From Natranaerobius thermophilus JW/NM-WN-LF (GTDB taxonomy: Bacteria; Bacillota; Natranaerobiia; Natranaerobiales; Natranaerobiaceae): a stretch of DNA of 64,000 bases. The notes under the pieces are model-generated. The model was not told where the DNA came from. It ran no database searches and saw nothing but the letters and a program-made list of their open reading frames with translations. A program made the translations under genes and the position numbers. Location of the stretch: the NCBI RefSeq assembly GCF_000020005.1, contig NC_010718.1, positions 2,252,001 through 2,316,000 of the forward strand, in the 5' to 3' direction. Below are positions 1,559 to 64,000 of the stretch, one piece after another (position 1 is the first letter of the stretch; every line of letters starts with the position of its first letter).

Positions 1559-1728
1559 ATTTACAGTTATCACTGTTATATTTCTTATAAATAATTGTAA
1601 AGTTAAAGAACATAAAAAAGCTTAGAACTACAAAAGCTAATGTCAGTTAATTTTATAATGTTTCTGTTTATTTAATAGATCCTTTATAATATAAGTTTTA
1701 ACCGATACATTCAGGAGGATGATAGTTT

Positions 1729-2601
1729 ATGTCAAATACGAACACAGAAATTGCCATAGTAGGCTGTGGCCCTGCCGGGTTGTCTGCAGCTATAAACGTT
1801 AAAGCTCGTAATAAAACAAGTTTGATTTTTGGCACTGAGGTATGTAGCCCCAAACTTCAAAAAGCTCCTCATTTACATAATTATCTAGGTTTTTTTGACA
1901 TTACAGGCGAAGAATTTCAAAAACGTGCCTTAAAACAAGTTGAACACTATGGAATTGAAATGTTGAGGTCTAGTGTTGACAGTATTTTTCCTCTAGGCGA
2001 TGGTTTTGATCTCATGGTTAAAGACGAAGTCTATCATGCAAAAGTCGTCATCTTAGCTACTGGAGTTACCCAAGGTCATGTACTACCAGGAGAAAACGAA
2101 TTTTTAGGTAAAGGGGTCAGTTACTGCGCTTCTTGTGATGCTCCAATATTTAAAAATAAAACGACTGCTATCATAGCTGAAGTAAAAGAAGCTGAACAAG
2201 AAGCGGAACTGTTATCCGAATTATGCGAACATGTGTATTATATTCCCCAGTATCGAGAAGAAATCCAAGTAAACGATGGAGTAGAAATAATCCAAGACAA
2301 ACCCAAAGCAATCCTTGGCAAAAATCAAGTTACTCACCTACAATTGAAAAATCAACGAATAGAATGTGACGGTATTTTTATAATTCGCGAAACTGTTCCC
2401 GCAAGCCAGCTAGTTCAAGGCCTAGAAACAAGTGGCTCTGCAATAAAGGTCAACCGAGATATGAGTACGAATATTGAGGGTCTATATGCAGCTGGTGATA
2501 TTACCGGTTGGCCCTATCAACTCGGCAAAGCAGTAGGAGAGGGCCAGGTTGCAGCACTCAATGCAGTGGATTTCATTTCACAACAAAAGAAAAATGATTA
2601 G
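1729..2601 (+). CDS. Thioredoxin-reductase-like flavoprotein lacking the NADPH motif
   Basis: This 290-residue protein has the FAD-binding GCGPAG motif (residues 12-17), the redox pair CASC at Cys133/Cys136 and the C-terminal FAD motif around GLYAAGDITG (251-260). These are the landmarks of low-molecular-weight thioredoxin reductases. The second Rossmann motif, normally GGGxSA, is replaced by AEVKEA (150-155), and the HRR motif that binds the NADPH phosphate is absent (YIPQYREE). Known clostridial ferredoxin-dependent flavin thioredoxin reductases (FFTR) also lack NADPH-binding motifs, so ferredoxin is the likelier donor here. The start follows AGGAGGATGATAGTTT. It probably supplies reduced thioredoxin to the upstream peroxiredoxin; that link is by proximity only. 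Confidence 0.8.
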   Translation: MSNTNTEIAIVGCGPAGLSAAINVKARNKTSLIFGTEVCSPKLQKAPHLHNYLGFFDITGEEFQKRALKQVEHYGIEMLRSSVDSIFPLGDGFDLMVKDEVYHAKVVILATGVTQGHVLPGENEFLGKGVSYCASCDAPIFKNKTTAIIAEVKEAEQEAELLSELCEHVYYIPQYREEIQVNDGVEIIQDKPKAILGKNQVTHLQLKNQRIECDGIFIIRETVPASQLVQGLETSGSAIKVNRDMSTNIEGLYAAGDITGWPYQLGKAVGEGQVAALNAVDFISQQKKND

Positions 2602-2625
2602 GGAAAGATGATTAAGATGTATCAA

Positions 2626-3210
2626 TTAATAAATTTTTAAATCATCAAAAGGATAATATCTCATGAGTACATTTCCTTTGACATTATCCATAGGGACAGG
2701 CCCAATTTGTCTGCTGTCTCTACTTTGGTTTATATTATCACCTATTACAAAAACATGATTTTCAGGAACTACCAGCGGATCAGTTGAAGGATAGATTTCC
2801 CCTGTTAAAATCTCTGGTTCTTCCAATGTCTCTCCATTCCTATAAATACTACCATTCTCAAACTTTATTTTGTCACCTGGCATCCCAATCACTCTTTTAA
2901 TCCAAAAGTGATCTCCTTGATTATCTAGTATTCTGCTTATTATGGGACTTTCAATCAAGCCGTCCATCCAATTTCTATCCCTATTAACTCTACTATCCAG
3001 GACTACTATATCCTGATATTCAGGTTCATTATCCAAGTGATAGGGGATTTTAAATGCAATGACTTTATCCCCATCAGTGAAAGTAGGTTCCATTGATGAA
3101 CCTCTAACAGCATACACTTGAAAAATAAATATATTTATTATTATCACGGTTATTAATATGAAAACTATTTGTTTAATCCAACGATAAATTTCGCTTATTA
3201 GTCCGAGCAT
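2626..3210 (-). CDS. lepB: Signal peptidase I
   Basis: Membrane-bound serine/lysine protease that removes signal peptides from exported proteins. It has 194 residues with one N-terminal membrane segment (about 13-31). The catalytic serine is in GSSMEPT (Ser39), the lysine in WIKRVIGMPGD (Lys105), and the C-terminal box is GDNINQSRDSR. I chose the ATG at 3210 because AAAGGAG lies nine bases upstream; a TTG six bases earlier is too close to the ribosome site. It is convergent with the preceding thioredoxin-reductase-like gene, with only about 25 bases between stops. Confidence 0.93.
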   Translation of the reverse strand: MLGLISEIYRWIKQIVFILITVIIINIFIFQVYAVRGSSMEPTFTDGDKVIAFKIPYHLDNEPEYQDIVVLDSRVNRDRNWMDGLIESPIISRILDNQGDHFWIKRVIGMPGDKIKFENGSIYRNGETLEEPEILTGEIYPSTDPLVVPENHVFVIGDNINQSRDSRQIGPVPMDNVKGNVLMRYYPFDDLKIY

Positions 3211-3410
3211 CCACAAAGTCTCCTTTATTGATATTTTAAAATCTTATTAAGAGGATAAAGTAATAAATGTTTTTTTCGCTTTTCTCTCAACTTGTCCATT
3301 CTTACTCAAATTCAATCCTTAATATCACCCTAATTCAAAGTTGTTATTCCTATCAATATTATCACTTTATTTTATTATAATGCTTATCACTTTTGGTAAG
3401 CAATGGAATC

Positions 3411-4481
3411 TTAATACCATTTCCCTGGAATTAATGTGTGGCAAAACCGGCATCTACCCTCATCTGTAATATTTAACTCTTGAATTGAAAAATGAAAACG
3501 ATTTACAAGAACATTCCCACATCTGTGACAAAAAGTAGAATTATATAAATGCCCAGCAACATTACCAATGGTCACATAATTAAGACCTTCTTCTTTGGCT
3601 ATAGACCGGGCTTCTTCTAGTACATTCAAAGGAGTCGGTGATAAATGTGTCAACTTGTAAACCGGTACAAAACGGCTAAAATGTAGAGGAATATCATATC
3701 CTAAGTTTTGATATATCCACCGACACATGGTCCGGATCATTCGAGGATTATCATTTAGTGTAGGAACGACTAAATTTACTAATTCCAGCCAAGCCCCTTG
3801 TTCCCTGACAATTTTTGCCGTATCTAAAACAGGTTCTAACTGTCCTTTAACCACATCTCGATAAAATTTATTACTAAATCCTTTCAAATCAATATTAACC
3901 CCATCTAAAAAGGTGATCAATTCCTTCATTGGCTCAGGGTTAATAAAGCCATTGGTATTTAACAAAACCTCCAGATTTTGAGATTTTGCTTCTCTGCTAA
4001 TTTCATACAAATATTCATAGAATACAGTGGGTTCGTTTCCGGTAAAGGCAAGTATTTTTATATTGTTTTTTAATGCATTTTTTACTACATCAACAGGAGA
4101 TAAGTAATGATACTCTTTTACTATGTCGATATCCCCTTGGGATAAGCGCCAATTATGACAGTATTCACACCTTAAATTACACCCTACTGTGCCTACATTA
4201 TAACACCAAACCCCTGGTCTATAATGAGAAAAGGGTAGTTTTTCTACAGGATCACTACTTACCAAAGAAGGTCGATTATAGACCTGGGAATATAGAGTCC
4301 CTTGTTTGTTTTGTCTGTTTAAGCAGGAGCCTTTTTCACCTAGATGGATAACACATCTCTTGGGACATAGTTCGCATTGCACAACGCCCTTTCCAAGTTT
4401 TTGATAAAACATGGCTTCTTTAGCAAAAAAATTATAACACCCCTGGCATTTTTCAGAAGCAAAAAAGTATCTTTTATTCAC
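3411..4481 (-). CDS. AmmeMemoRadiSam system radical SAM enzyme
   Basis: A 356-residue radical SAM protein. The cluster-binding motif is CNLRCEYC near residue 100. It is preceded by an N-terminal Cys-rich domain (CELCPKRC, GSC) and the family signature PVEKLPFSHYRPG, and there are two more CxxC pairs near the C terminus (CHRCG, CRFCH). This layout matches the enzymes that accompany Memo and AMMECR1 proteins in the AmmeMemoRadiSam system. Neither Memo nor AMMECR1 is in the window, so it stands alone here. The GTG start at 4481 has GGGGTG ten bases upstream. Substrate unknown. Confidence 0.82.
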   Translation of the reverse strand: MNKRYFFASEKCQGCYNFFAKEAMFYQKLGKGVVQCELCPKRCVIHLGEKGSCLNRQNKQGTLYSQVYNRPSLVSSDPVEKLPFSHYRPGVWCYNVGTVGCNLRCEYCHNWRLSQGDIDIVKEYHYLSPVDVVKNALKNNIKILAFTGNEPTVFYEYLYEISREAKSQNLEVLLNTNGFINPEPMKELITFLDGVNIDLKGFSNKFYRDVVKGQLEPVLDTAKIVREQGAWLELVNLVVPTLNDNPRMIRTMCRWIYQNLGYDIPLHFSRFVPVYKLTHLSPTPLNVLEEARSIAKEEGLNYVTIGNVAGHLYNSTFCHRCGNVLVNRFHFSIQELNITDEGRCRFCHTLIPGKWY

Positions 4482-4590
4482 ATGAATTCACCCCTAAATA
4501 TCCGTTAAATTCCATTCTCCACTGATTAATAATATTCTAAACCATTGGCCTTCATACTTTGGAATTTAAACATTTAGGAGTTTTATATTT

Positions 4591-4642
4591 TCCCACAGCT
4601 AAAGTAGTGGTGTGGGCTTTCTGCTAGTGTTTATCGTAATCA
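4591..4642. repeat. Dispersed repeat copy A (hairpin, partner at 47818)
   Basis: About 50 bases with CCCACA / TGTGGG hairpin arms followed by CTTTCTGCT and TGTTTATCGTA. A second, 4-base-shorter copy lies at 47818-47862 with the same order of blocks. The stop codon of the helicase gene on the minus strand lies inside this copy. It may be the end of a decayed insertion sequence; no transposase is adjacent. Confidence 0.6.
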
Positions 4643-7218
4643 CTCTTTATAAAATTTAGATATTTTTTAGGTATTAATTTGGCAAATCGACTGATGGCTT
4701 GATTAAAACTATGTTCATCTTTACTAGCCCAGCTAATAAATAAAGCTTGTTTAGCCCTAGTCATAGCTACATAAAACAATCTATGTTCTTCATCGATATT
4801 GCCAAGTTTTTTGTTTCTAAAGTAGGGAAAATTATTGTCATCGGCAGAAGCTATAAATACCGCATCAAATTCTAAACCTTTTGCCTGATGAACAGTTAGT
4901 AATGCCACTTTATCCTGGTCCAAGACATGCCTGTCAGAGTCACTTCCCAAAGATACATATTCTAAAATATTCTTTAACGACATATTGGGAGATAGAGTCT
5001 CGTCATCAAAATAGTCAAAAATTGACACTAACTCTTTAAGGTTATTAATTCGTTGCTTATCTTTTTTCCAATAATCAGCCAACCCGGATTCTTGGATGAC
5101 ATGGGAAAGTAGTTCTGGAGGGCGCATAGTCAAGGTTTTTCTGCGCCAGGAATTTAAGGCTATAGCCAGGTTGGCAAATTTATCTCCATAACTATTGACA
5201 TATTCTTTTCGTTTTTCAATTCCGGGCTTGATTTTCTCTAACAAGATCTGCAGTAGTTCAAAAGTGGCTTCTACATCATCCATAGCTCTATGAGTCGGTT
5301 TACTAGAAATTTGTAAATCTTCACAGAGACTTTCTAAGTTATACTTTTCCAATCTAGGAAAATAACGACGAGATATATCCACAGTATCATAGCCGTGTAG
5401 CTCCAAATCCTGATTTAAAAGTTTTTTACACTGATTCTCTACCATTGTTATATCGTAATTGACATTATGTCCTACCAGGTCACAATCATCTATAAAATTA
5501 GTAAAAGAAGCCAGAGACTTCTCCGGAGGTTTACCTTGCTCTAATAAGACTTGATCTGAGATGCCGTGAACCTGGAATGATTCACCAACGGGCTTGGAGT
5601 TTCGTAAATATTCATGAAATTCATCAACCACACCATCTTTCCCTGCCTTTAAAGCTGCTAATTCAATAATTTCATCCTTTGTAGTATCTAGACCTGTTGT
5701 TTCAACATCAAAAACAACTAATTTATTTTGTTCAAATTTATTTACTAATCGGGCAAAGGGATCTCTGTATTTTAAAGTTGATGTATTGGCAAAATCTACT
5801 AACTTGAGGCCAACATCAGATGGAATATTTAAGAGTGTTTCTATTGTTTTTTCACCAATACCTCGGGCAGGTTTTTGCAAAATTCTTCTCAAACTATTAC
5901 TGTCGTGTTTGTTAAACAATAATCTCAAGTACGCCATGGCATCCTTTATTTCAGATCTTCTAAAGAACTTATAACTATCTACAGTAAAGTGAGGTATCTG
6001 GTTTTTAGCTAGTTCTTGGGAAATCAAGTGATTAACTTGATTTGTCCTGGTCAATAAGGCAATATCTTGAAATTTAAACCCTTGCTCCCGAACCAATCTA
6101 AAAATTTGATCTGCTATTAACTCTACTTCTTGTTGCCGATGGGCACCTTTAATAATCCCGGTTTTTTCACCTTCTACTTGTGCTTCAGGCCAAATATCCA
6201 AAGAATCTCCTTTGTACTTACTGGCTACACAGTAACAAGCCCTCAAAATATTTCGGGTGGAACGGTAGTTAACATTTAAGTTAATTTCTGTTACAGGAGA
6301 AAATTCAGACTTAAAATTTTCCATCACTTGATTGGGTGCAGACCCTCTCCATTCATAGACAGTTTGCTGAATATCTCCAAATAAAGATAAATTTTTATGT
6401 TTTTGACTCAATTCAGAAATAATCCCATATTCCTGATAGCTAGTATCTTGTACTTCATCAACCTGTACAAACTCAAATTTATCTTGCCATCGTGTTTTAG
6501 CATCTGTCCTCTCACTGAAGAGCCTGTCCACATAAAATATTAGATCCGAAAAGTCCAGGGCATGGTTTTCGGAAAGAAGCCGATTGTATTCACGAAATAT
6601 CTCTTTGTGTTTGAAATCTTGATCTTTGCTCGTGTTTTTAAAATATGCTTCTGATAATCTTTCCCTAAACAATTGATCCATCTTGTCCTGTTCTCCCAAT
6701 GGGTTATTAACATTTATTTTTTCCACATCTACATTTGCTGCTTTTACTCGAGCAATATAATTCATCATAAAATTAATAAATCTTTTGGCATCAGTACTGG
6801 CAATTTGAAAGTCTTTGGTCTTTATAACGTCATTTAAAATTGTCTTGGCATCTTCTTCATCAAATATATTAAAATCAGCTGGAATTCCCAAAATATCTGA
6901 TTCTATTCGTATAATCTCAGCACATAAAGCATGAAATGTTTTTATAGTTGTATTTTGTGCCCTTGGACCTAAATCCTGAATGATTCTTTCCTTCATTTCC
7001 CTAGCAGCACGATTTGTAAAAGTAAGGCATAAAATCTTGTTGGGATCAAAACCATTTACAATAGCATTGGCAGCTCTAAGGCTTATAACACTTGTTTTCC
7101 CTGTACCTACAGGTGCAGTAACCAAAAGAGAACCTTCTATTTGATTTACAGCCTGCTTTTGTGAATCATTTAATTTTCGAAACAGCTCTTCAACATGATA
7201 GTTTAGATGAGAAATCAA
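4624..7218 (-). CDS. UvrD/Rep-type helicase with an inserted DEDDh (DnaQ-like) exonuclease domain
   Basis: An 864-residue superfamily 1 3'-5' DNA helicase. Motifs appear in order: Walker A APVGTGKT (about residue 35-42), Walker B QVDEVQD (about 252), motif III FGDIQQTVYEWRGS, motif IV NVNYRST, then motifs V/VI TVHQAKGLEFD and FYVAMTRAK near the C terminus. Between motifs IV and V sits a complete DEDDh exonuclease of about 165 residues (499-663): VVFDVETTGLD, GHNVNYD, HRAMDD. I place the start at TTG 7218, which has AGGAGGGG nine bases upstream; the longer ATG at 7245 lacks a spaced ribosome site. The role is probably DNA repair or end processing, which is inference. Confidence 0.88.
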   Translation of the reverse strand: MISHLNYHVEELFRKLNDSQKQAVNQIEGSLLVTAPVGTGKTSVISLRAANAIVNGFDPNKILCLTFTNRAAREMKERIIQDLGPRAQNTTIKTFHALCAEIIRIESDILGIPADFNIFDEEDAKTILNDVIKTKDFQIASTDAKRFINFMMNYIARVKAANVDVEKINVNNPLGEQDKMDQLFRERLSEAYFKNTSKDQDFKHKEIFREYNRLLSENHALDFSDLIFYVDRLFSERTDAKTRWQDKFEFVQVDEVQDTSYQEYGIISELSQKHKNLSLFGDIQQTVYEWRGSAPNQVMENFKSEFSPVTEINLNVNYRSTRNILRACYCVASKYKGDSLDIWPEAQVEGEKTGIIKGAHRQQEVELIADQIFRLVREQGFKFQDIALLTRTNQVNHLISQELAKNQIPHFTVDSYKFFRRSEIKDAMAYLRLLFNKHDSNSLRRILQKPARGIGEKTIETLLNIPSDVGLKLVDFANTSTLKYRDPFARLVNKFEQNKLVVFDVETTGLDTTKDEIIELAALKAGKDGVVDEFHEYLRNSKPVGESFQVHGISDQVLLEQGKPPEKSLASFTNFIDDCDLVGHNVNYDITMVENQCKKLLNQDLELHGYDTVDISRRYFPRLEKYNLESLCEDLQISSKPTHRAMDDVEATFELLQILLEKIKPGIEKRKEYVNSYGDKFANLAIALNSWRRKTLTMRPPELLSHVIQESGLADYWKKDKQRINNLKELVSIFDYFDDETLSPNMSLKNILEYVSLGSDSDRHVLDQDKVALLTVHQAKGLEFDAVFIASADDNNFPYFRNKKLGNIDEEHRLFYVAMTRAKQALFISWASKDEHSFNQAISRFAKLIPKKYLNFIKSDYDKH

Positions 7219-7291
7219 AACCACAACCCCTCCTGGATTAAACATCCTTACTTACTCAATTATAGCAAACTCCTGTTCGCCTAGAAAGTAT

Positions 7292-7335
7292 AAAAAAACC
7301 TGGATGTTTGGCCTTAACAGGGCTAAACTCCAGGT
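7292..7335 (-). terminator. Terminator after the HD-GYP gene
   Basis: ACCTGGA / TCCAGGT plus an inner GTTTRGCC pairing forms a long stem (7298-7335); on the minus strand it runs into a T tract (7297 down to 7292). Confidence 0.85.
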
Positions 7336-7350
7336 CTAAAATAATTATCA

Positions 7351-8460
7351 TCATCCGGTAGCTTCTTGACTAAAATTAGATTGTTCAGCTTCACCTTCAG
7401 CAACCTTTACAATAGTTACTTTGTTATATTTAGTTTCACGCAAATCGATATCGTAAGGCTGAATATCTTGTCCCTTTTCCTTAATAATTCTTACCCTAGG
7501 GCGCAAGCTATAGCTTTCAAAGTTTTCAATAACTAAGCCTTGCCTTCCGTCATTTAAAACAACTTCGGAACCTACAGGAAAAGCAGCCACTTTTTTGAAA
7601 AAGTGTCCTACTACTCGTTTATCAAATAACGAACCCGCTCCTCCTAGAATATACTCCATAGCTTCTGAAGGAACAACTCCTTTTCTATAAGGTCTATCAG
7701 ATATCAAGGCATCAAAGACATCAACTACACTGACTATGCGACTGAATACGTGGATATCTTCTCCTGCTTTTCCATTGGGATACCCTTCCCCATTATATCT
7801 CTCATGATGTTGCAAAATTACAATTTTAGCAGTAGATGGGATTTGTTCTTGGTCTTTTAATTTTTCGTAACCTTGTTGAGAATGGGTTTTTACCTGTTCA
7901 TATTCTTCTTCTGTCAGTTTCCCTTCCTTGTTTAATATATCATTGGATATTTCCAGTTTTCCGACATCATGCAGAAGAGCACCTAAACCCAGCTTGTATA
8001 AATCATATGAATTAAATCCCATGGACATTCCCACAATCATTGATAAAATAGCCACATTTACTGAATGATGAAATAAGTATTCATTATACATTTTCATGTC
8101 AATAATATCCACTATAGAATTTTTACGATCTAAGACATCTTCCATTATTTTATTCAATACACTTTTTATATCATCAACTTGATTTTCTAAGGAAACTTTA
8201 TTATCCACTTTTTTAAAGGTGTCTTTAATTTCTTCTACTGCCTCACGTTTCAATTCTTCATTAATCAGATCGTTAACTTCTACATCTTCTAAAAGCTCAT
8301 CCTGTATATAAACAGCATTGTATCCTAATTCTTTGATTTTAGGTATGTATTTCTCTTTTAAGGTAGCCCCTTCTTGTAACAGTCTGGTTCCATTGCTACT
8401 GTATACGGGTCTAGCTAATACCATTCCATTTTCAATATCTTCTACATGTACCCTTCTCAA
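7351..8460 (-). CDS. HD-GYP domain protein, probable c-di-GMP phosphodiesterase
   Basis: A 369-residue protein. The N-terminal 100 residues resemble DUF3391. The HD-GYP domain (about 125-300) shows HHSVNVA, ALLHDVGKLEI, KTHSQQGYE, QHHERYNGEGYP and SVVDVFDALISDRPYR, so the metal-binding His/Asp set and the GYP signature are intact. A C-terminal extension (about 300-369) has a small beta-rich look. The TTG start follows AAGGAGG. The 5' leader carries a c-di-GMP-I riboswitch, so the enzyme that breaks down the second messenger appears to be controlled by it. Activity is inferred from motifs. Confidence 0.9.
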   Translation of the reverse strand: MRRVHVEDIENGMVLARPVYSSNGTRLLQEGATLKEKYIPKIKELGYNAVYIQDELLEDVEVNDLINEELKREAVEEIKDTFKKVDNKVSLENQVDDIKSVLNKIMEDVLDRKNSIVDIIDMKMYNEYLFHHSVNVAILSMIVGMSMGFNSYDLYKLGLGALLHDVGKLEISNDILNKEGKLTEEEYEQVKTHSQQGYEKLKDQEQIPSTAKIVILQHHERYNGEGYPNGKAGEDIHVFSRIVSVVDVFDALISDRPYRKGVVPSEAMEYILGGAGSLFDKRVVGHFFKKVAAFPVGSEVVLNDGRQGLVIENFESYSLRPRVRIIKEKGQDIQPYDIDLRETKYNKVTIVKVAEGEAEQSNFSQEATG

Positions 8461-8532
8461 ATCAAAACCTCCTTCAGATACTTAATCTGATTGCTAGACT
8501 AGATAGTTAAACCATTATAATTATTAGATAAT

Positions 8533-8558
8533 TAAAAAGCCCCGGTAAGCGGGGCTAA
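8533..8558 (-). terminator. Terminator in the leader of the HD-GYP gene
   Basis: The stem AGCCCCG / CGGGGCT (8539-8545 and 8551-8557) is followed on the minus strand by TTTTTAATTATC. It lies between the c-di-GMP aptamer and the start codon, so it is probably the expression platform of that riboswitch. Confidence 0.8.
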
Positions 8559-8651
8559 TTTTTATATACATGTATGGACAAGCTTACAAACTTTATTACT
8601 AAAAAAGTCCTAAACAAGTTATAGTATCGCAAGATAAACTTGATTTTTTTA

Positions 8652-8762
8652 GGTTATCCTGCGGCAGCCTGGCAGTCCTAGCAATTTAATTATATATACA
8701 ATAAAGTGCCTTAGACCCATGGCTTTGCGTCCCTAACTTTCATTAGGTTTGCCCCGATAACA
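8652..8762 (-). promoter_or_regulatory. c-di-GMP-I (GEMM) riboswitch aptamer, copy 1
   Basis: Read on the minus strand, this holds the GEMM-I hallmarks in order: GGGCAAACC, a P2 hairpin capped by a GAAA tetraloop, GGGACGCAAAGCC, a longer P3 arm, and GGCTGCC. A closing stem GATAAC / GTTATC pairs 8756-8761 with 8653-8658. A terminator lies about 100 bases downstream, followed by the HD-GYP gene. Ligand identity rests on resemblance to the known Vc2-type aptamer. Confidence 0.88.
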
Positions 8763-8955
8763 AGCTATCTTATTTTAATTCCCCGATGTTACTATTTTAA
8801 CAAAGTTTCTCGAAATTGCATTAGGACTTAATTATCATTTTTTGAGAAATTTCGACAATTATCAACGAGGGTTTGTTAAACTTTTGCTAGAACATATAAC
8901 ATATATACAAAATGCCAAAACTAGTAAATTTTTATTAATTTAAGGAGTGAGCTTA

Positions 8956-10326
8956 ATGATTCATAAAGAAAGAATAGAAATCCTCCAAGAAGTACAAACA
9001 CCAGCTCAAGAAGGAAAATACGTACTCTACTGGATGCAAAAAGCACAACGAACTCATTACAATCATGCACTTGAATATGCTATCGAACAGGCCAACAAGC
9101 TCAACTTACCCCTGATCGTTTATTTTGGCTTGTACGAACAATTTCCTTATGCTAGTTCAAGACATTTTCAGTTCATGCTTCAAGGATTACAGGATGTCGC
9201 CGAAAACTTGGCGAAAAGAAATATCAAAATGATTATAAAGAGAACTTTTCCTCCTTATGGGGCAATTGAATTAGCAAAAGATGCTTCTATGATTGTAGTT
9301 GACAAGGGGTATCTTAAATTTGAAAAGGACTGGAAAGAAATACTCTCACATCAGTTAAGCTGTCCTATTCACCAAATTGAAACCGACGCCGTTATACCGG
9401 TGAATACAGCCTCTTCGAAAGAAGAGTATGCTGCCTATACATTGCGAAAAAAGCTCTTAAAAATGCTTGACATTTTCCTCACTCCTTTGATTTCAAGGAA
9501 TCCAAATTTTAATTCCTTTGAGATAACAAATCTAGAACAATATAATGATATAGATATTTATACTAAAAGTGCTTCCGAAATTCTAGAGGAATTAGACATC
9601 CATCGAGAAGTACAACCCGTAACAGATATTAAAGGAGGAGAAAATCAAGCTCTAGAACAATTATCCGGGTTTTTGAACCAAGGAAAAGGTTTGGAGCTCT
9701 ATATTCAAAAAAAGAATGACCCTAGTGTTCAGGCCACTTCAAAATTAAGCCCTTATTTACATTTTGGCCAAATTTCACCTTTATTTATCGCACTAGAAGT
9801 ACTTAAATTTACCCAAGATTATAATCATGAATTTCTAGAACAATTAATAGTCAGAAGAGAGTTGAGCCTTAACCTGATTGAGAAAAATATTAATTATCTT
9901 ACTTTATCACCACTGCCTCAGTGGTCTATAAAAACTCTAAATGAACACCGCAATGACCCGCGAAATAACTTTTATACCTTAGAAGAAATAGAAGCCGCTA
10001 ACACACATGATAAATACTTTAATGCAGCCCAAAAAGAACTTATGTCCAGGGGAACAATTCATAATTATATCCGTATGTACTGGGGGAAAAAGATCATAGA
10101 GTGGTCCCAAACGCCAGAAGAAGCTCATAATACCCTCTGTCACTTGAATGACAAATATGCCCTAGACGGTCGTGATCCCAATGGTTACGCCAATATATTA
10201 TGGTGTTTTGGCAAACACGACCGACCATTCCAAGAGAGGCAAATTTTTGGGAAAGTAAGGTATATGGGAGTTAATGCATTAAAGAGAAATGGCAAACCTG
10301 ACCAATATGTGGCTACTTGGGTCTAG
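8956..10326 (+). CDS. phr: Class II deoxyribodipyrimidine (CPD) photolyase
   Basis: A flavoenzyme that uses light to split cyclobutane pyrimidine dimers in DNA. It has 456 residues. The N-terminal antenna domain begins YWMQKAQRTHYNHALEYA, a class II signature. The C-terminal FAD domain contains LSPYLHFGQISP, QLIVRRELS, KELMSRGTIHNYIRMYWGKKI and LDGRDPNGYANILWCFGKHDRP. I chose the ATG at 8956 because AAGGAG (8942-8947) is eight bases upstream; a GTG at 8947 overlaps that site. Its last 14 bases overlap the convergent DUF523/DUF1722 gene. In E. coli a DUF1722 gene (ybgA) is also the neighbour of phr. Confidence 0.93.
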   Translation: MIHKERIEILQEVQTPAQEGKYVLYWMQKAQRTHYNHALEYAIEQANKLNLPLIVYFGLYEQFPYASSRHFQFMLQGLQDVAENLAKRNIKMIIKRTFPPYGAIELAKDASMIVVDKGYLKFEKDWKEILSHQLSCPIHQIETDAVIPVNTASSKEEYAAYTLRKKLLKMLDIFLTPLISRNPNFNSFEITNLEQYNDIDIYTKSASEILEELDIHREVQPVTDIKGGENQALEQLSGFLNQGKGLELYIQKKNDPSVQATSKLSPYLHFGQISPLFIALEVLKFTQDYNHEFLEQLIVRRELSLNLIEKNINYLTLSPLPQWSIKTLNEHRNDPRNNFYTLEEIEAANTHDKYFNAAQKELMSRGTIHNYIRMYWGKKIIEWSQTPEEAHNTLCHLNDKYALDGRDPNGYANILWCFGKHDRPFQERQIFGKVRYMGVNALKRNGKPDQYVATWV

Positions 10327-18284: not shown

Positions 18285-19568
18285 TTATGCAGCATCCTGC
18301 AATAAATTTAATGAACTGTTCTTTAACATCATCCTGCCATTATAAGGTGTCTTTTTGGTACCTAGGGCAAACAAAACTCTGATCAATCTACACGCTAATG
18401 CTACAAGCGATTGTTTCTTTTTTAAGGGATTTTCTGGCCTTGTGGTATAATAATCGTGTAATAACTTAAATTCAGGATTCTTGGCTACTAATGGAATCAC
18501 GCAGCGATATAAGAGTCCTCTCAAACGAGGTCGACCTCGTTTGGTTATCTTGGTTTCACCTTTGTGCTTACCTGAACTGTTCTCTTTTAGATTTAAGCCT
18601 GCCAGCTTCTTAATTTGATTTGGATGTTGATAATTAGAAAGATCACCCACTTCAGCCAAAAATCCTGCCACTGTTACCATCCCTACTCCAGGAATACTCA
18701 TCATTTCTTCTGCTCCTGGAATTTCTTTTAAAATATTTTCTATCTGAACAAGTACTTGTTCTAACTCTTCTATTAAAGCGTCATACTGCGACAATAGGGT
18801 TTTCAATTCTTGTCTTGCCATTATTTCGCCTTCTGTTATACCAGTACTATTCTTGGCTGCTTCTTTCAGCTTTCTTGCTCTTTTTTTACCTACTGCTCGA
18901 TTCACTTCTCGTTTCCAGCAACTTACTATCTCTTCTTCACTATGACCTAATATTTCTTTTGGTAAAGGGAAATTTTTTAGGGTTAATAGTGCTGCTTTTC
19001 CATCCCAGTTCTTAAACACTGTGCTGAATTCTGGGAAGTAACGATCTAACCAATTGTCTATCCTACCTTTTACACGCCTTAAGTCATCTGTTAGCCGATC
19101 TCGCAAATTCATCCCATTCCGTAGTTCTGCATATATTCCTGTAGGGATATTGGGTACTGAGTAACGGCCATCTTTTACTAACTGTGCTATCACTTTTGCA
19201 TCTTTAATATCATTTTTAGTTGGTGAGTTGTCGTCTAGTTCTTTGCTCTTTTTTACGTGATTTGGATTTACTAAAATAGTTTGGATACCTGTTTGCTTTA
19301 AAAATTGAGCTAGAGTCAGCCAGTATTGGCCAGTAGGTTCCATACCTACTAAGACTTCTTCTTTTGCTTGTTCTTGTTTGATTACCTCTAGCCAACTTAA
19401 AAACTTCTTAAAACCTTTCCTGGTGTTTTCAAAGGTGATTGGTTTCGAAAACTCCACACCCCGAAAATCCTGAGCTCTTGCTACGTGTTCTGCTTTTGCA
19501 ATGTCTACTCCGATAATCAAACTTGACTCTTTTACTTGATTAATTCTCTCATTTTGGGTATACTTCAT
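18285..19568 (-). CDS. IS110-family transposase (DEDD recombinase)
   Basis: A 427-residue transposase with an N-terminal RuvC-like DEDD domain: IGVDIAKAEH (first Asp), VGMEPTGQYW (Glu), NDIKDAKVIAQL (Asp pair). A central coiled-coil-like stretch (about 225-280) follows, then the C-terminal Transposase_20 domain with MMSIPGVGMVTVAGFLAEVGD and the Ser-containing segment LKENSSGKHKGETKITKRG. It appears full length, so the copy may be active. The ribosome site GAGGAGG pairs with an upstream AAGTACCTCCT (see the leader hairpin). Confidence 0.92.
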   Translation of the reverse strand: MKYTQNERINQVKESSLIIGVDIAKAEHVARAQDFRGVEFSKPITFENTRKGFKKFLSWLEVIKQEQAKEEVLVGMEPTGQYWLTLAQFLKQTGIQTILVNPNHVKKSKELDDNSPTKNDIKDAKVIAQLVKDGRYSVPNIPTGIYAELRNGMNLRDRLTDDLRRVKGRIDNWLDRYFPEFSTVFKNWDGKAALLTLKNFPLPKEILGHSEEEIVSCWKREVNRAVGKKRARKLKEAAKNSTGITEGEIMARQELKTLLSQYDALIEELEQVLVQIENILKEIPGAEEMMSIPGVGMVTVAGFLAEVGDLSNYQHPNQIKKLAGLNLKENSSGKHKGETKITKRGRPRLRGLLYRCVIPLVAKNPEFKLLHDYYTTRPENPLKKKQSLVALACRLIRVLFALGTKKTPYNGRMMLKNSSLNLLQDAA

Positions 19569-57515: not shown

Positions 57516-59564
57516 TTAATACTTAAACTTAGATGCTTCTTCCTGCATGTCCTCGGCCAATTTGGCAAGTTGCTCACTGGCTTTTGCTATTTCATCCATT
57601 GAAGCCGTTTGCTCTTCAACTGATGATGATATCTCTTCGGAAGAAGATGAATTTTCTTCTGCAATAGCTGATAAGTCTTGTAAAGCTTCGATAATCTCAT
57701 TTTTCTGGGTTTGCATGTCACCACCGGTATCTTGAAATTCTTCGGTTTTTTCTTTTATCTTATTTATTCTTTCGGCAATTTCCTCAAACTGTTCTTTGGT
57801 TTTACTTACATTTTCCCGCTGATTATTAACCGTTTCTTTGGTCTCTTCCATATTGTTAACTGCACCTTCTGCGTTATCTTTCAGCCCCTTGACTGAGGAT
57901 AATATTTCTTCGGAGTGTTCGTTGCTGCGTTCAGCCAACTTTCTGATTTCGTCTGCAACTACTGCGAAACCTTTTCCATCTTCTCCGGCTCTCGCCGCCT
58001 CTATACTGGCATTTAAAGCCAACAGATTTGTTTGTTCAGCAATATCCTGGATAGTACCACTTACTGACTGGATGGTATCTGCACTTTCTTTTGTTTTATT
58101 AACTACTTCCATCATTTTATCCGTTGCTTCATTTACTTTTTGAGTATCTTCAGTCAAATTTTCTACGATTTCAAAGCCTTTTTCTTTATGATTTGTCACA
58201 TCTTTTGTTATATCAATTAATTCTTGGACACTTTTCTGGTCTTCATCAATTATTTCTCCTAGTCGTTCCGAGTTATTTGAGGTTTGTTCTGTTTTTTCCG
58301 CCTGATTAGCTGCACCACTGGCAATATCTTCAACAGCTTTTGATACTTCATTAGCTGCACTAGTATTTTCCTCTGTATTAGCACTTAAATTTTCGGAAGA
58401 GGAGGCTACCTCATTGGATTTTTCTTGTAATTTTTTAATTAGAGAGACCACATTGTTTTGCATAGTAGCAAGGGAATTAGTGATTGTCCCAATCTCATCG
58501 GATCTATTCATGTATTTGACTGCTTCATGCCCTTCATCAAAGCTAAAATCATAATCGGCTAATTTATTGATTATATGTGTTAAATTTGAAATTGGCTTCG
58601 TTAGTAATTGTTTAAAAATAACCATATTTGTCCCGATTAACAATAAAATTATAATTGCTATAGCTGCAACTACTATTTGATTAAAAGTATTAATCGGTTC
58701 CCTGATTTCATCCATACTGATCATGCCACCGACATAAAGATCTTCCCACTTTTCAAATGTTATATAATATTCTTCGCCCTCTATATCCATGCTGGTTTCT
58801 CCACTTTGATGTTCAAAAATATAATCCTGCAATTCTTGATATGGCATGGGTTGATTAATCATATCTTCATTAGAATGTAGGCTATAAGTACCTTGATCGT
58901 TAATTGCAAAGACAAGCCCTTCTTCACCTAACTCTGCATTTTCAGCAATCGATTGCGCCTCTTGATCAACGAATTCGTAAAGCTCTTGCAGTTCATCCAC
59001 TTCAATACCGATTTGAACGATACCATCTTGATCCTGTCTGGATACTCCTATGTATTGAAACATAGTATCGTCTTGAGCCCTTTCTTCCGCCTCCTGGACA
59101 AGGACCGCATCTTCTTGGTCAATTAAATCAAGAAAGGGTTGCGTTTGTTCACTTTCACTAAAATCTAGTCCTATGGCATCTTCAAAACTACTATATTGGA
59201 TTATGCCTTCTGAATCTGTTACATGAACTTCATCAACTCCTAGCGTTGCCCTTAACTCCTCCATCCCATCCTGGGATAAATAATCTGGATGTTCTTCAAT
59301 TAATGTTGCTGCAGCCCAGGTGTCATCCAAAAACTGATCTTCCATAATATCCATTAACATTACATTGTTTTGACTGGCAGATGTTAAACCATCAACCACT
59401 GATTCCATCTCACTCTCTGCATTGTTAGTCATCAAATCAATTACAAGATCTTCAACATTATTGGATAATGTATACCCCATTACCACAACTGCTAAGACTG
59501 TGATAATAATTAAGGGTATTAACATCCTCCACTGCAAACTAAGACCACTGAATAAGTTTCTCAT
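57516..59564 (-). CDS. Methyl-accepting chemotaxis protein with dCache-like sensor
   Basis: A 682-residue receptor. Membrane segment 1 lies at about 14-32 and an acidic extracellular sensor of Cache type follows (about 33-300). A second membrane segment ([21 protein letters not shown]) and HAMP domain precede the signalling domain, whose hairpin tip is [19 protein letters not shown]. Many Glu/Asp outside suggest a saline environment. ATG 59564 has GGGGGGGAG upstream. The longer reading to 59741 runs through a riboswitch and is rejected. No other chemotaxis gene is in the window. Confidence 0.93.
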
Positions 59565-59611
59565 AATTACTCCCCCCCATTTGTGTTTAAATTTTTGCTG
59601 ATTAAGTATTC

Positions 59612-59654: not shown

Positions 59655-59740
59655 TTTCCTTGGCAGCCCGACTGTCTTTATAATAATCGTAAAGACTCGT
59701 GGCTTTGCGCCCCCACCTCGCGATAGGTTTGCCTTTATCA
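59655..59740 (-). promoter_or_regulatory. c-di-GMP-I (GEMM) riboswitch aptamer, copy 2
   Basis: On the minus strand: GGCAAACC, a hairpin with a GCGA tetraloop, GGCGCAAAGCC, a P3 arm, and GGGCTGCC. The order and GNRA tetraloop agree with GEMM-I and with copy 1 at 8652. The closing stem P1 is weak by eye. It should couple chemoreceptor expression to c-di-GMP. Confidence 0.85.
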
Positions 59741-63202: not shown

Positions 63203-64000
63203 ATCGAGTAGGAGGTAGATAATTATTTTATCTACCGACCTCTCACACCACCGAGCAAACCGTTCGGTACACGGCGGTTCCTAGTTTACGCTTTAACTTG
63301 TCGATAATATTCCGAAAAGAATAGGAAACCAAATCCTTTGATTACATCATTTCCAAGGGATTTGGATAAGACGGGGCTATTGGAAATTCTCCAGTAGCCC
63401 TTTCTTGTGTTTGCATATTCCCATGCTTTGTATTTATTGGCTCCAAAGAACTTGAGCATTTTAAATTTTGTTCTCACTTTCTTCCATTGTTTCCAGTAAA
63501 TCATGCGAATACGCCTTCTCATCCAACTGTCAGTATTTATTAACAGATTCTTCATATCAGCTGGTTTAAAGTAGTTAACCCAACCCATAATGTATCGGCT
63601 AAGTTTCTTTGCTCTGGCTTCGTTGCTTATTCCATAACTTCTAGATGTGAGTTCTTTTATTCTCGTTCTCATCTTTGTAACTGATTTAAGATGAACTCTT
63701 AATCTGGCTTTTCCTTTATGTCTGTAAAAGCCAAACCCAAGAAATCTTACCTTTCCTACATAGGCAACTACAGTTTTATCTTTATTTACTTTGAGAAATA
63801 GTTTATTTTCGATGAAGGGTAGTATGTTCTTCAAGGTGCGTCCGGCACTTCTTCTGCTTTTACAAAAGATTAGCAGGTCGTCCGCATAGCGGACGAATTC
63901 GTGCCCCCTTTTCTCAAGTTCTTTATCCAATTCGTGGAGCATTATGTTACTGAGGATAGGGCTAAGAGGCCCGCCCTGGGGCACGCCAACTTCTGTATCC
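63203..64000 (-). mobile_element. Group II intron, 3' part (continues beyond window)
   Basis: The reverse-transcriptase gene is followed on the minus strand by domain V (63243-63282; CCGCCGTGTACCGAACGG with its pairing partner CTCGGTGGTG) and domain VI (about 63208-63241; GGTAGATAA / TTATCTACC with a bulged A). The intron end falls near 63203 at CCTACTCGAT. Confidence 0.85.
63286..64000 (-). CDS. ltrA: Group II intron reverse transcriptase/maturase, C-terminal part
   Basis: The frame is open to the right edge, so the N terminus lies outside. The visible 237 residues start in RT motif 4 (VGVPQGGPLSPILSN), contain the catalytic YADD box, and then the thumb/X domain and GIIM maturase region (AKKLSRYIMGWVNYF, WMRRRIRMIYWKQWKK). 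No HNH endonuclease domain is seen; the protein ends SEYYRQVKA. It helps the intron splice and move. Confidence 0.92.
   Translation of the reverse strand, partial: DTEVGVPQGGPLSPILSNIMLHELDKELEKRGHEFVRYADDLLIFCKSRRSAGRTLKNILPFIENKLFLKVNKDKTVVAYVGKVRFLGFGFYRHKGKARLRVHLKSVTKMRTRIKELTSRSYGISNEARAKKLSRYIMGWVNYFKPADMKNLLINTDSWMRRRIRMIYWKQWKKVRTKFKMLKFFGANKYKAWEYANTRKGYWRISNSPVLSKSLGNDVIKGFGFLFFSEYYRQVKA

Follow-up and report, generated by a model that had tools for sequence, protein, structure and literature searches.

Analysis of a 64,000-nt stretch of the Natranaerobius thermophilus genome (hereinafter, the window, which lies within the 3,165,557-base contig of a 3.19 Mb genome consisting of three contigs) points to a transcriptional riboswitch of the c-di-GMP-I class that probably controls a gene for an HD-GYP phosphodiesterase and, judging from the predicted folding of the leader, most likely operates as an OFF switch. 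The initial annotation had recognized here an aptamer, a terminator and a gene for c-di-GMP breakdown that line up, over a span (8533-8762) that extends from the aptamer through the terminator and with the strand left unnamed, and had suggested feedback control. The identities of the three elements and their alignment, all on the minus strand, are borne out by the present analysis, and feedback control is a reasonable inference from the gene order. The sign of the feedback had been left open; the modelled folding predicts that it is positive, with c-di-GMP repressing its own phosphodiesterase, as opposed to the homeostasis that is usually implied by this term.

The order of elements on the minus strand is a promoter-like site, the aptamer, a spacer of ~100 nt, the terminator, a Shine-Dalgarno sequence and the HD-GYP gene. 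The aptamer (8660-8763) matches the RF01051 covariance model over its full length (model positions 1-87 of 87; 73.9 bits, more than twice the gathering score of 35; E = 1.2e-12). Just 5' of it, a consensus scan detects a weak sigma-70-like promoter (TTAAAA-17-TAAAAT, 8772-8800, 9 of 12 consensus matches), a kind of evidence that is itself weak given that the scan returns 13 promoter-like sites vs 7.6 in shuffled sequences. The intrinsic terminator hairpin (8556-8538) reads AGCCCCG-CTTAC-CGGGGCT and is followed by TTTT (sequence TTTTAATTAT); the terminator scan taken alone is also weak evidence (3 terminator-like sites vs 1.0 +/- 1.0 in shuffles), and no other helix in the leader is as strong as this hairpin (-13.2 kcal/mol). 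The Shine-Dalgarno sequence GAAGGAGG (8468-8475), read directly, is located 7 nt 5' of the TTG start codon.

The gene itself (7351-8460) encodes a protein of 369 aa that contains the Pfam domain HD_5 (PF13487, E = 2.8e-30) and has PDB 4mcw as its best solved relative by sequence (E = 4e-31, HD domain residues 91-291). In an alignment of five sequences, namely this protein and four homologues, H132, H164-D165, H193, H218-H219 and D247, which we take to be the metal-binding residues, are invariant, and the HD, H, HH and D positions of 4mcw are all retained. The signature HHExxDGxGYP is represented by HHERYNGEGYP, i.e., everything is kept except for the replacement of D by N, and accordingly HHExxD in 4mcw corresponds to HHExxN here. 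As far as the sequence goes, the protein is likely to be enzymatically active in the breakdown of c-di-GMP.

Directly 3' of the HD-GYP gene, on the same strand, is a gene (4624-7245) for a UvrD-type helicase fused to an RNase_T (exonuclease) domain. Scans for terminator-like sites (3 in 7200-9100 and 5 in 2500-7500) found none between 7351 and 7245, so that the riboswitch may control more than one gene. The divergent plus-strand neighbour (8947-10326) is photolyase-like, its sole match being to the N-terminal domain of photolyases (PF00875), and a transposase gene of the IS110 family (PF01548, PF02371) is present on the minus strand at 18285-19568.

For comparison, we compiled 134 distinct c-di-GMP-I aptamers, a set that leans to the best-scoring among the matches listed and comes mostly from 61 genomes; RF01051 is present in 50 of the 61 genomes searched, with four matches in the analysed genome. 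The set derives from 138 covariance matches (from 51 and 78 sources) after removal of three repeats (the match at window position 59656, which is the L002 element, and two matches of L098, which are those of L022) and one duplicate (L161). Two loci, L012 and L110, hold further aptamers outside the survey, and the other omitted loci are repeats or were fetched for other reasons. A regular-expression search for aptamers yielded only 50 sequences and was replaced by the covariance model.

In an alignment of 26 aptamers, the conserved letters of the class (GGCAAA, GACGCAAAGCC and 3' GCTGCC) are all intact in the analysed element, and the G in column 11, presumably equivalent to G20 of Vc2, is in keeping with c-di-GMP, not cGAMP, as the ligand. 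An exception to the usual sequence is found in columns 8-10, which read CGG where AAA is commonest in the 134-aptamer survey, and CGGGGC in columns 8-13 is the sole case in the set, the commonest sequence being AAAGGC (53 rows). Apart from this aptamer, only three others of the 134 lack A in both columns 8 and 9, and the C and G at these positions could weaken ligand binding. The aptamer thus departs from the consensus where its match to the terminator lies. The element belongs to a known riboswitch class; its expression platform is possibly a variant.

Three helices stand out in the leader as the strongest: the terminator, an anti-P1 hairpin (8663-8654 x 8637-8628, -11.7 kcal/mol) and a helix between the 5' strand of the aptamer and the left arm of the terminator (-11.6 kcal/mol). 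In the anti-P1 hairpin, predicted from the helix listing, the folds of growing transcripts and the survey comparison, the aptamer 3'/P1 strand CGCAGGAUAA (8654-8663) is the left arm and UUAUCUUGCG (8628-8637) is the right arm; in the third helix, CGGGGC (8756-8751), the predicted antiterminator strand, is complementary to GCCCCG (8555-8550). Growing transcripts were folded length by length, either free or with the aptamer and P1 held folded as a stand-in for bound ligand. In the free transcripts, the aptamer is closed by a shifted P1 (0.89) as long as the 3' end has not passed 8640, the anti-P1 hairpin is dominant at 3' end 8626 (0.97), and the 5' strand pairs with the emerging left arm (0.87 at 8550, 0.97 at 8542 and 0.93 at 8540) until, upon completion of the right arm at 8538, the terminator replaces this pairing (0.89). 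The alignment allows the canonical P1 (CUUGU x GCAGG), but in the free ensemble it is never favoured (0.00-0.01), the shifted P1 being preferred. With the aptamer and P1 held, pairing between the 5' strand and the arm is 0, and the terminator reaches 0.96-0.98 from 8538 on (37 C). Raising the temperature to 53 and 60 C leaves the order of folding unchanged and lowers the pairing at 8540 to 0.77 and 0.73, respectively.

The aptamer, the terminator, the gene and the complementarities, along with the predicted order of their formation, all follow from computation. On this basis, we propose that, at low c-di-GMP, extension of the RNA to approximately 8628 would let the 3' strand of the aptamer refold into the anti-P1 hairpin, and the aptamer would open; the freed CGGGGC would then capture the emerging left arm of the terminator, GCCCCG, with read-through of RNA polymerase into the HD-GYP gene. 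At high c-di-GMP, bound ligand would lock P1 and the 5' strand in the aptamer, such that the terminator would be formed and no enzyme produced. Since the terminator still wins in the full-length RNA in the absence of ligand (0.89-0.92), the OFF model requires kinetic control, that is, polymerase would have to be past the U tract by the time the antiterminator is displaced. Ligand binding and this kinetic behaviour, as well as the activity of the enzyme and the feedback in the cell, are what we infer from the computed picture.

Both complementarities were compared with what could arise by chance. Among the 45 riboswitches of the 134 that have a terminator under the strict rule, the helix between the 5' strand and the left arm is the best, and none of the 44 swapped partners is as good, in either direction, although related genomes are not independent samples in such comparisons. 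The rules for terminators are our own and miss real ones, so that both 45 of 134 (strict) and 59 of 134 (looser) are undercounts; an evident terminator in the printed leader of L003, for example, is missed even by the looser rule. Own pairs at or below -10 kcal/mol number 3 in the 45 riboswitches, vs 0.2 expected. The generalization that class I riboswitches use the 5' strand as the antiterminator was considered and rejected, the mean for own pairs being -3.3 kcal/mol vs -2.6 for swapped pairs. Shuffling the spacer leaves the long-range pairing undiminished or stronger in 46 of 200 cases; hence the spacer adds nothing, and the pairing depends on the two fixed strands alone. The anti-P1 hairpin ranks second of 132 riboswitches (L013 and L096:104-185, which have fewer than 120 bases downstream, were left out of the 134), none of 60 shuffles gives one as good, and a second test, in which the spacer was shuffled 200 times, gave equally full engagement of the P1 3' strand in 4 cases. 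This hairpin is unlikely to be due to chance.

The dominance of the terminator in the free full-length RNA would also be expected of an ON switch, in which the ligand prevents termination and c-di-GMP raises the level of the phosphodiesterase. Such negative feedback, i.e., homeostasis, is the intuitive use of a riboswitch/phosphodiesterase pair, and class I ON switches are known (reported in passages of PMC4759541 and PMC6366702), including Bc3-Bc5 of Bacillus thuringiensis, which likewise combine a class I aptamer with an intrinsic terminator (PMC4759541). However, in Bc3-Bc5, as described there, the ligand prevents termination and aptamer nucleotides enter the terminator, that of Bc4 taking nucleotides from P1 and P3, whereas in the analysed leader the terminator is separate, ~100 nt past the aptamer, shares no strand with it and is predicted to form with ligand bound, equally well or better than in the free RNA. 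Moreover, in our reading of the 40 strongest helices, there is none through which a strand released by the ligand would pair with an arm of the terminator in the bound state. We therefore regard an ON switch as unlikely.

A different route to the OFF state is suggested by a hairpin rich in A and U (8653-8609), with six U after it, that would form in the bound state, leaving the strong terminator as the second one, partly constitutive. The inner stem of this hairpin (8642-8637 x 8620-8615) is at ~0.9 with the aptamer held and near 0 in the free RNA, and a class I platform with two terminators, Bc1, has been reported (PMC11218506). The outer stem, however, is weak (0.2-0.45), rich in A+U and separated from the U run, and the CGGGGC match would be unused and hence a product of chance; in our assessment, this route is decidedly improbable.

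The preferred OFF model, with the 5' strand as the antiterminator, finds its closest known counterpart in Cd1, the class I OFF riboswitch in the Clostridioides difficile flgB leader, for which a transiently stable antiterminator that refolds later has been described (passages of PMC9262584); according to a review, the class I riboswitches of this organism are all OFF switches (PMC6366702). Both leaders have an aptamer and a separate downstream terminator, and the termination favoured by the ligand and the transient antiterminator described for Cd1 are predicted for the analysed leader. The wiring differs: in Cd1, as described, the antiterminator is formed by the 3' strand of the aptamer (A) with T and H (PMC9262584), whereas for the analysed leader the prediction is that a separate hairpin sequesters the 3' strand and that it is the 5' strand that pairs with the terminator arm. 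Cd1 also differs in controlling flagellar genes.

A second apparent case of the analysed arrangement is L079, a c-di-GMP-I riboswitch (1501-1589) from another genus of the same order. It has an anti-P1 hairpin of 11 pairs (fourth of 132), and its 5' strand GGGGC matches the terminator arm GCCCC, the pairing reaching 0.99 at arm emergence and 0.42 four bases later in the free fold, so that it fades earlier than in the analysed leader. This riboswitch also differs in preceding a chemotaxis-receptor gene (PF00015, E = 7.3e-44); a DUF418 gene is found upstream of it. The full relay, whereby the anti-P1 hairpin opens the aptamer, the 5' strand antiterminates ~200 nt downstream and the phosphodiesterase is repressed in a possibly bistable loop, with the platform recurring in another genus, is a proposal to which we would give somewhat less than an even chance.

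Sister elements of the same genome appear to be wired in other ways. In L004, the P1 3' strand can pair with the left arm of its own terminator, which resembles the Cd1 wiring, and in L002 it pairs with the terminator loop and the first bases of the right arm. The L002 element (window 59742-59658, minus strand) is a c-di-GMP-I-GGC riboswitch (RF03167, 73.3 bits) with its own terminator and precedes a chemotaxis-receptor gene (57516-59567, PF00015). A third riboswitch, also c-di-GMP-I-GGC (L073:3499-3581, minus strand), is located just outside the window, making three within ~60 kb; it is flanked by a GGDEF and HD-domain gene (PF00990, PF13487) and a chemotaxis-receptor gene (PF00015) (ORFs 3639-5420 and 1597-3327). 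Beside this cluster, at the end of the window, there is an ORF for a group II intron reverse transcriptase/maturase (window 63286-63984, minus strand; PF00078, PF08388), with matches to group II intron RNA nearby (L073:1238-1533). A search of the analysed genome for c-di-GMP-II elements gave no match, which shows little given that the control genomes gave none either.

The association of c-di-GMP-I riboswitches with HD-GYP genes is recurrent rather than new: in 18 of the 134 rows (17 loci, with a tandem pair counted twice and the analysed one included), a same-strand HD-GYP gene lies no more than 1.5 kb downstream, though in some cases not as the nearest gene. One of these rows, L006, a named record outside the 61 genomes, owes its place to the HD-GYP query, so that this count is favoured by one. 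The looser rule detects a terminator in 6 of the 18 rows. Other HD-GYP-linked riboswitches in the phylum (e.g., L089, L093 and L091) share the aptamer class and the downstream gene with the analysed one, but among the three HD-GYP rows examined for it, only the latter has the strong 5'-strand match.

The closest orthologues of the HD-GYP protein (64% in G001:C16; 62% and 56% in G002:C1) are encoded in loci where no RF01051 match was found, L042 and L043 having also been scanned at the gathering threshold; accordingly, the riboswitch was either gained in the analysed genome or lost in the orthologues, and no orthologous leader for covariation analysis was found at these genes. This distribution, together with the CGG in columns 8-10, would fit an element that no longer regulates the HD-GYP gene, its altered conserved positions leaving the terminator to fire regardless of ligand. 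Non-regulating class I elements have been reported, as 11 functional riboswitches (passages of PMC6366702) stand against 16 predicted (passages of PMC6200980) in C. difficile, and Bc1 is described as unresponsive (PMC11218506). We nevertheless find such decay quite unlikely, considering the full-length match to the model, whose score is more than double the gathering threshold, the intact GGCAAA and 3' GCTGCC, and the improbability of the anti-P1 hairpin arising by chance.

A literature search of titles and abstract openings found no description of this leader, which does not establish that it is unpublished. According to passages of one review, many class I target genes concern the production or degradation of c-di-GMP or signalling by it (PMC7266159), and those of another name metabolic genes as rare targets (PMC6366702). 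In C. difficile, transcription of one phosphodiesterase gene is down 5.1-fold at raised c-di-GMP, a parallel in behaviour to the proposed OFF loop that the passages concerned do not tie to a riboswitch (PMC6200980). Given that aptamer, terminator and degrading enzyme are in line, the sign of the loop is testable with one leader and one transcription assay. An OFF switch implies that c-di-GMP silences the enzyme that removes it, which amounts to positive feedback. If this is the case, c-di-GMP would protect itself from breakdown and the loop would be switch-like rather than a thermostat; should the relay hold as well, the double-negative loop could render the c-di-GMP state of the cell bistable.
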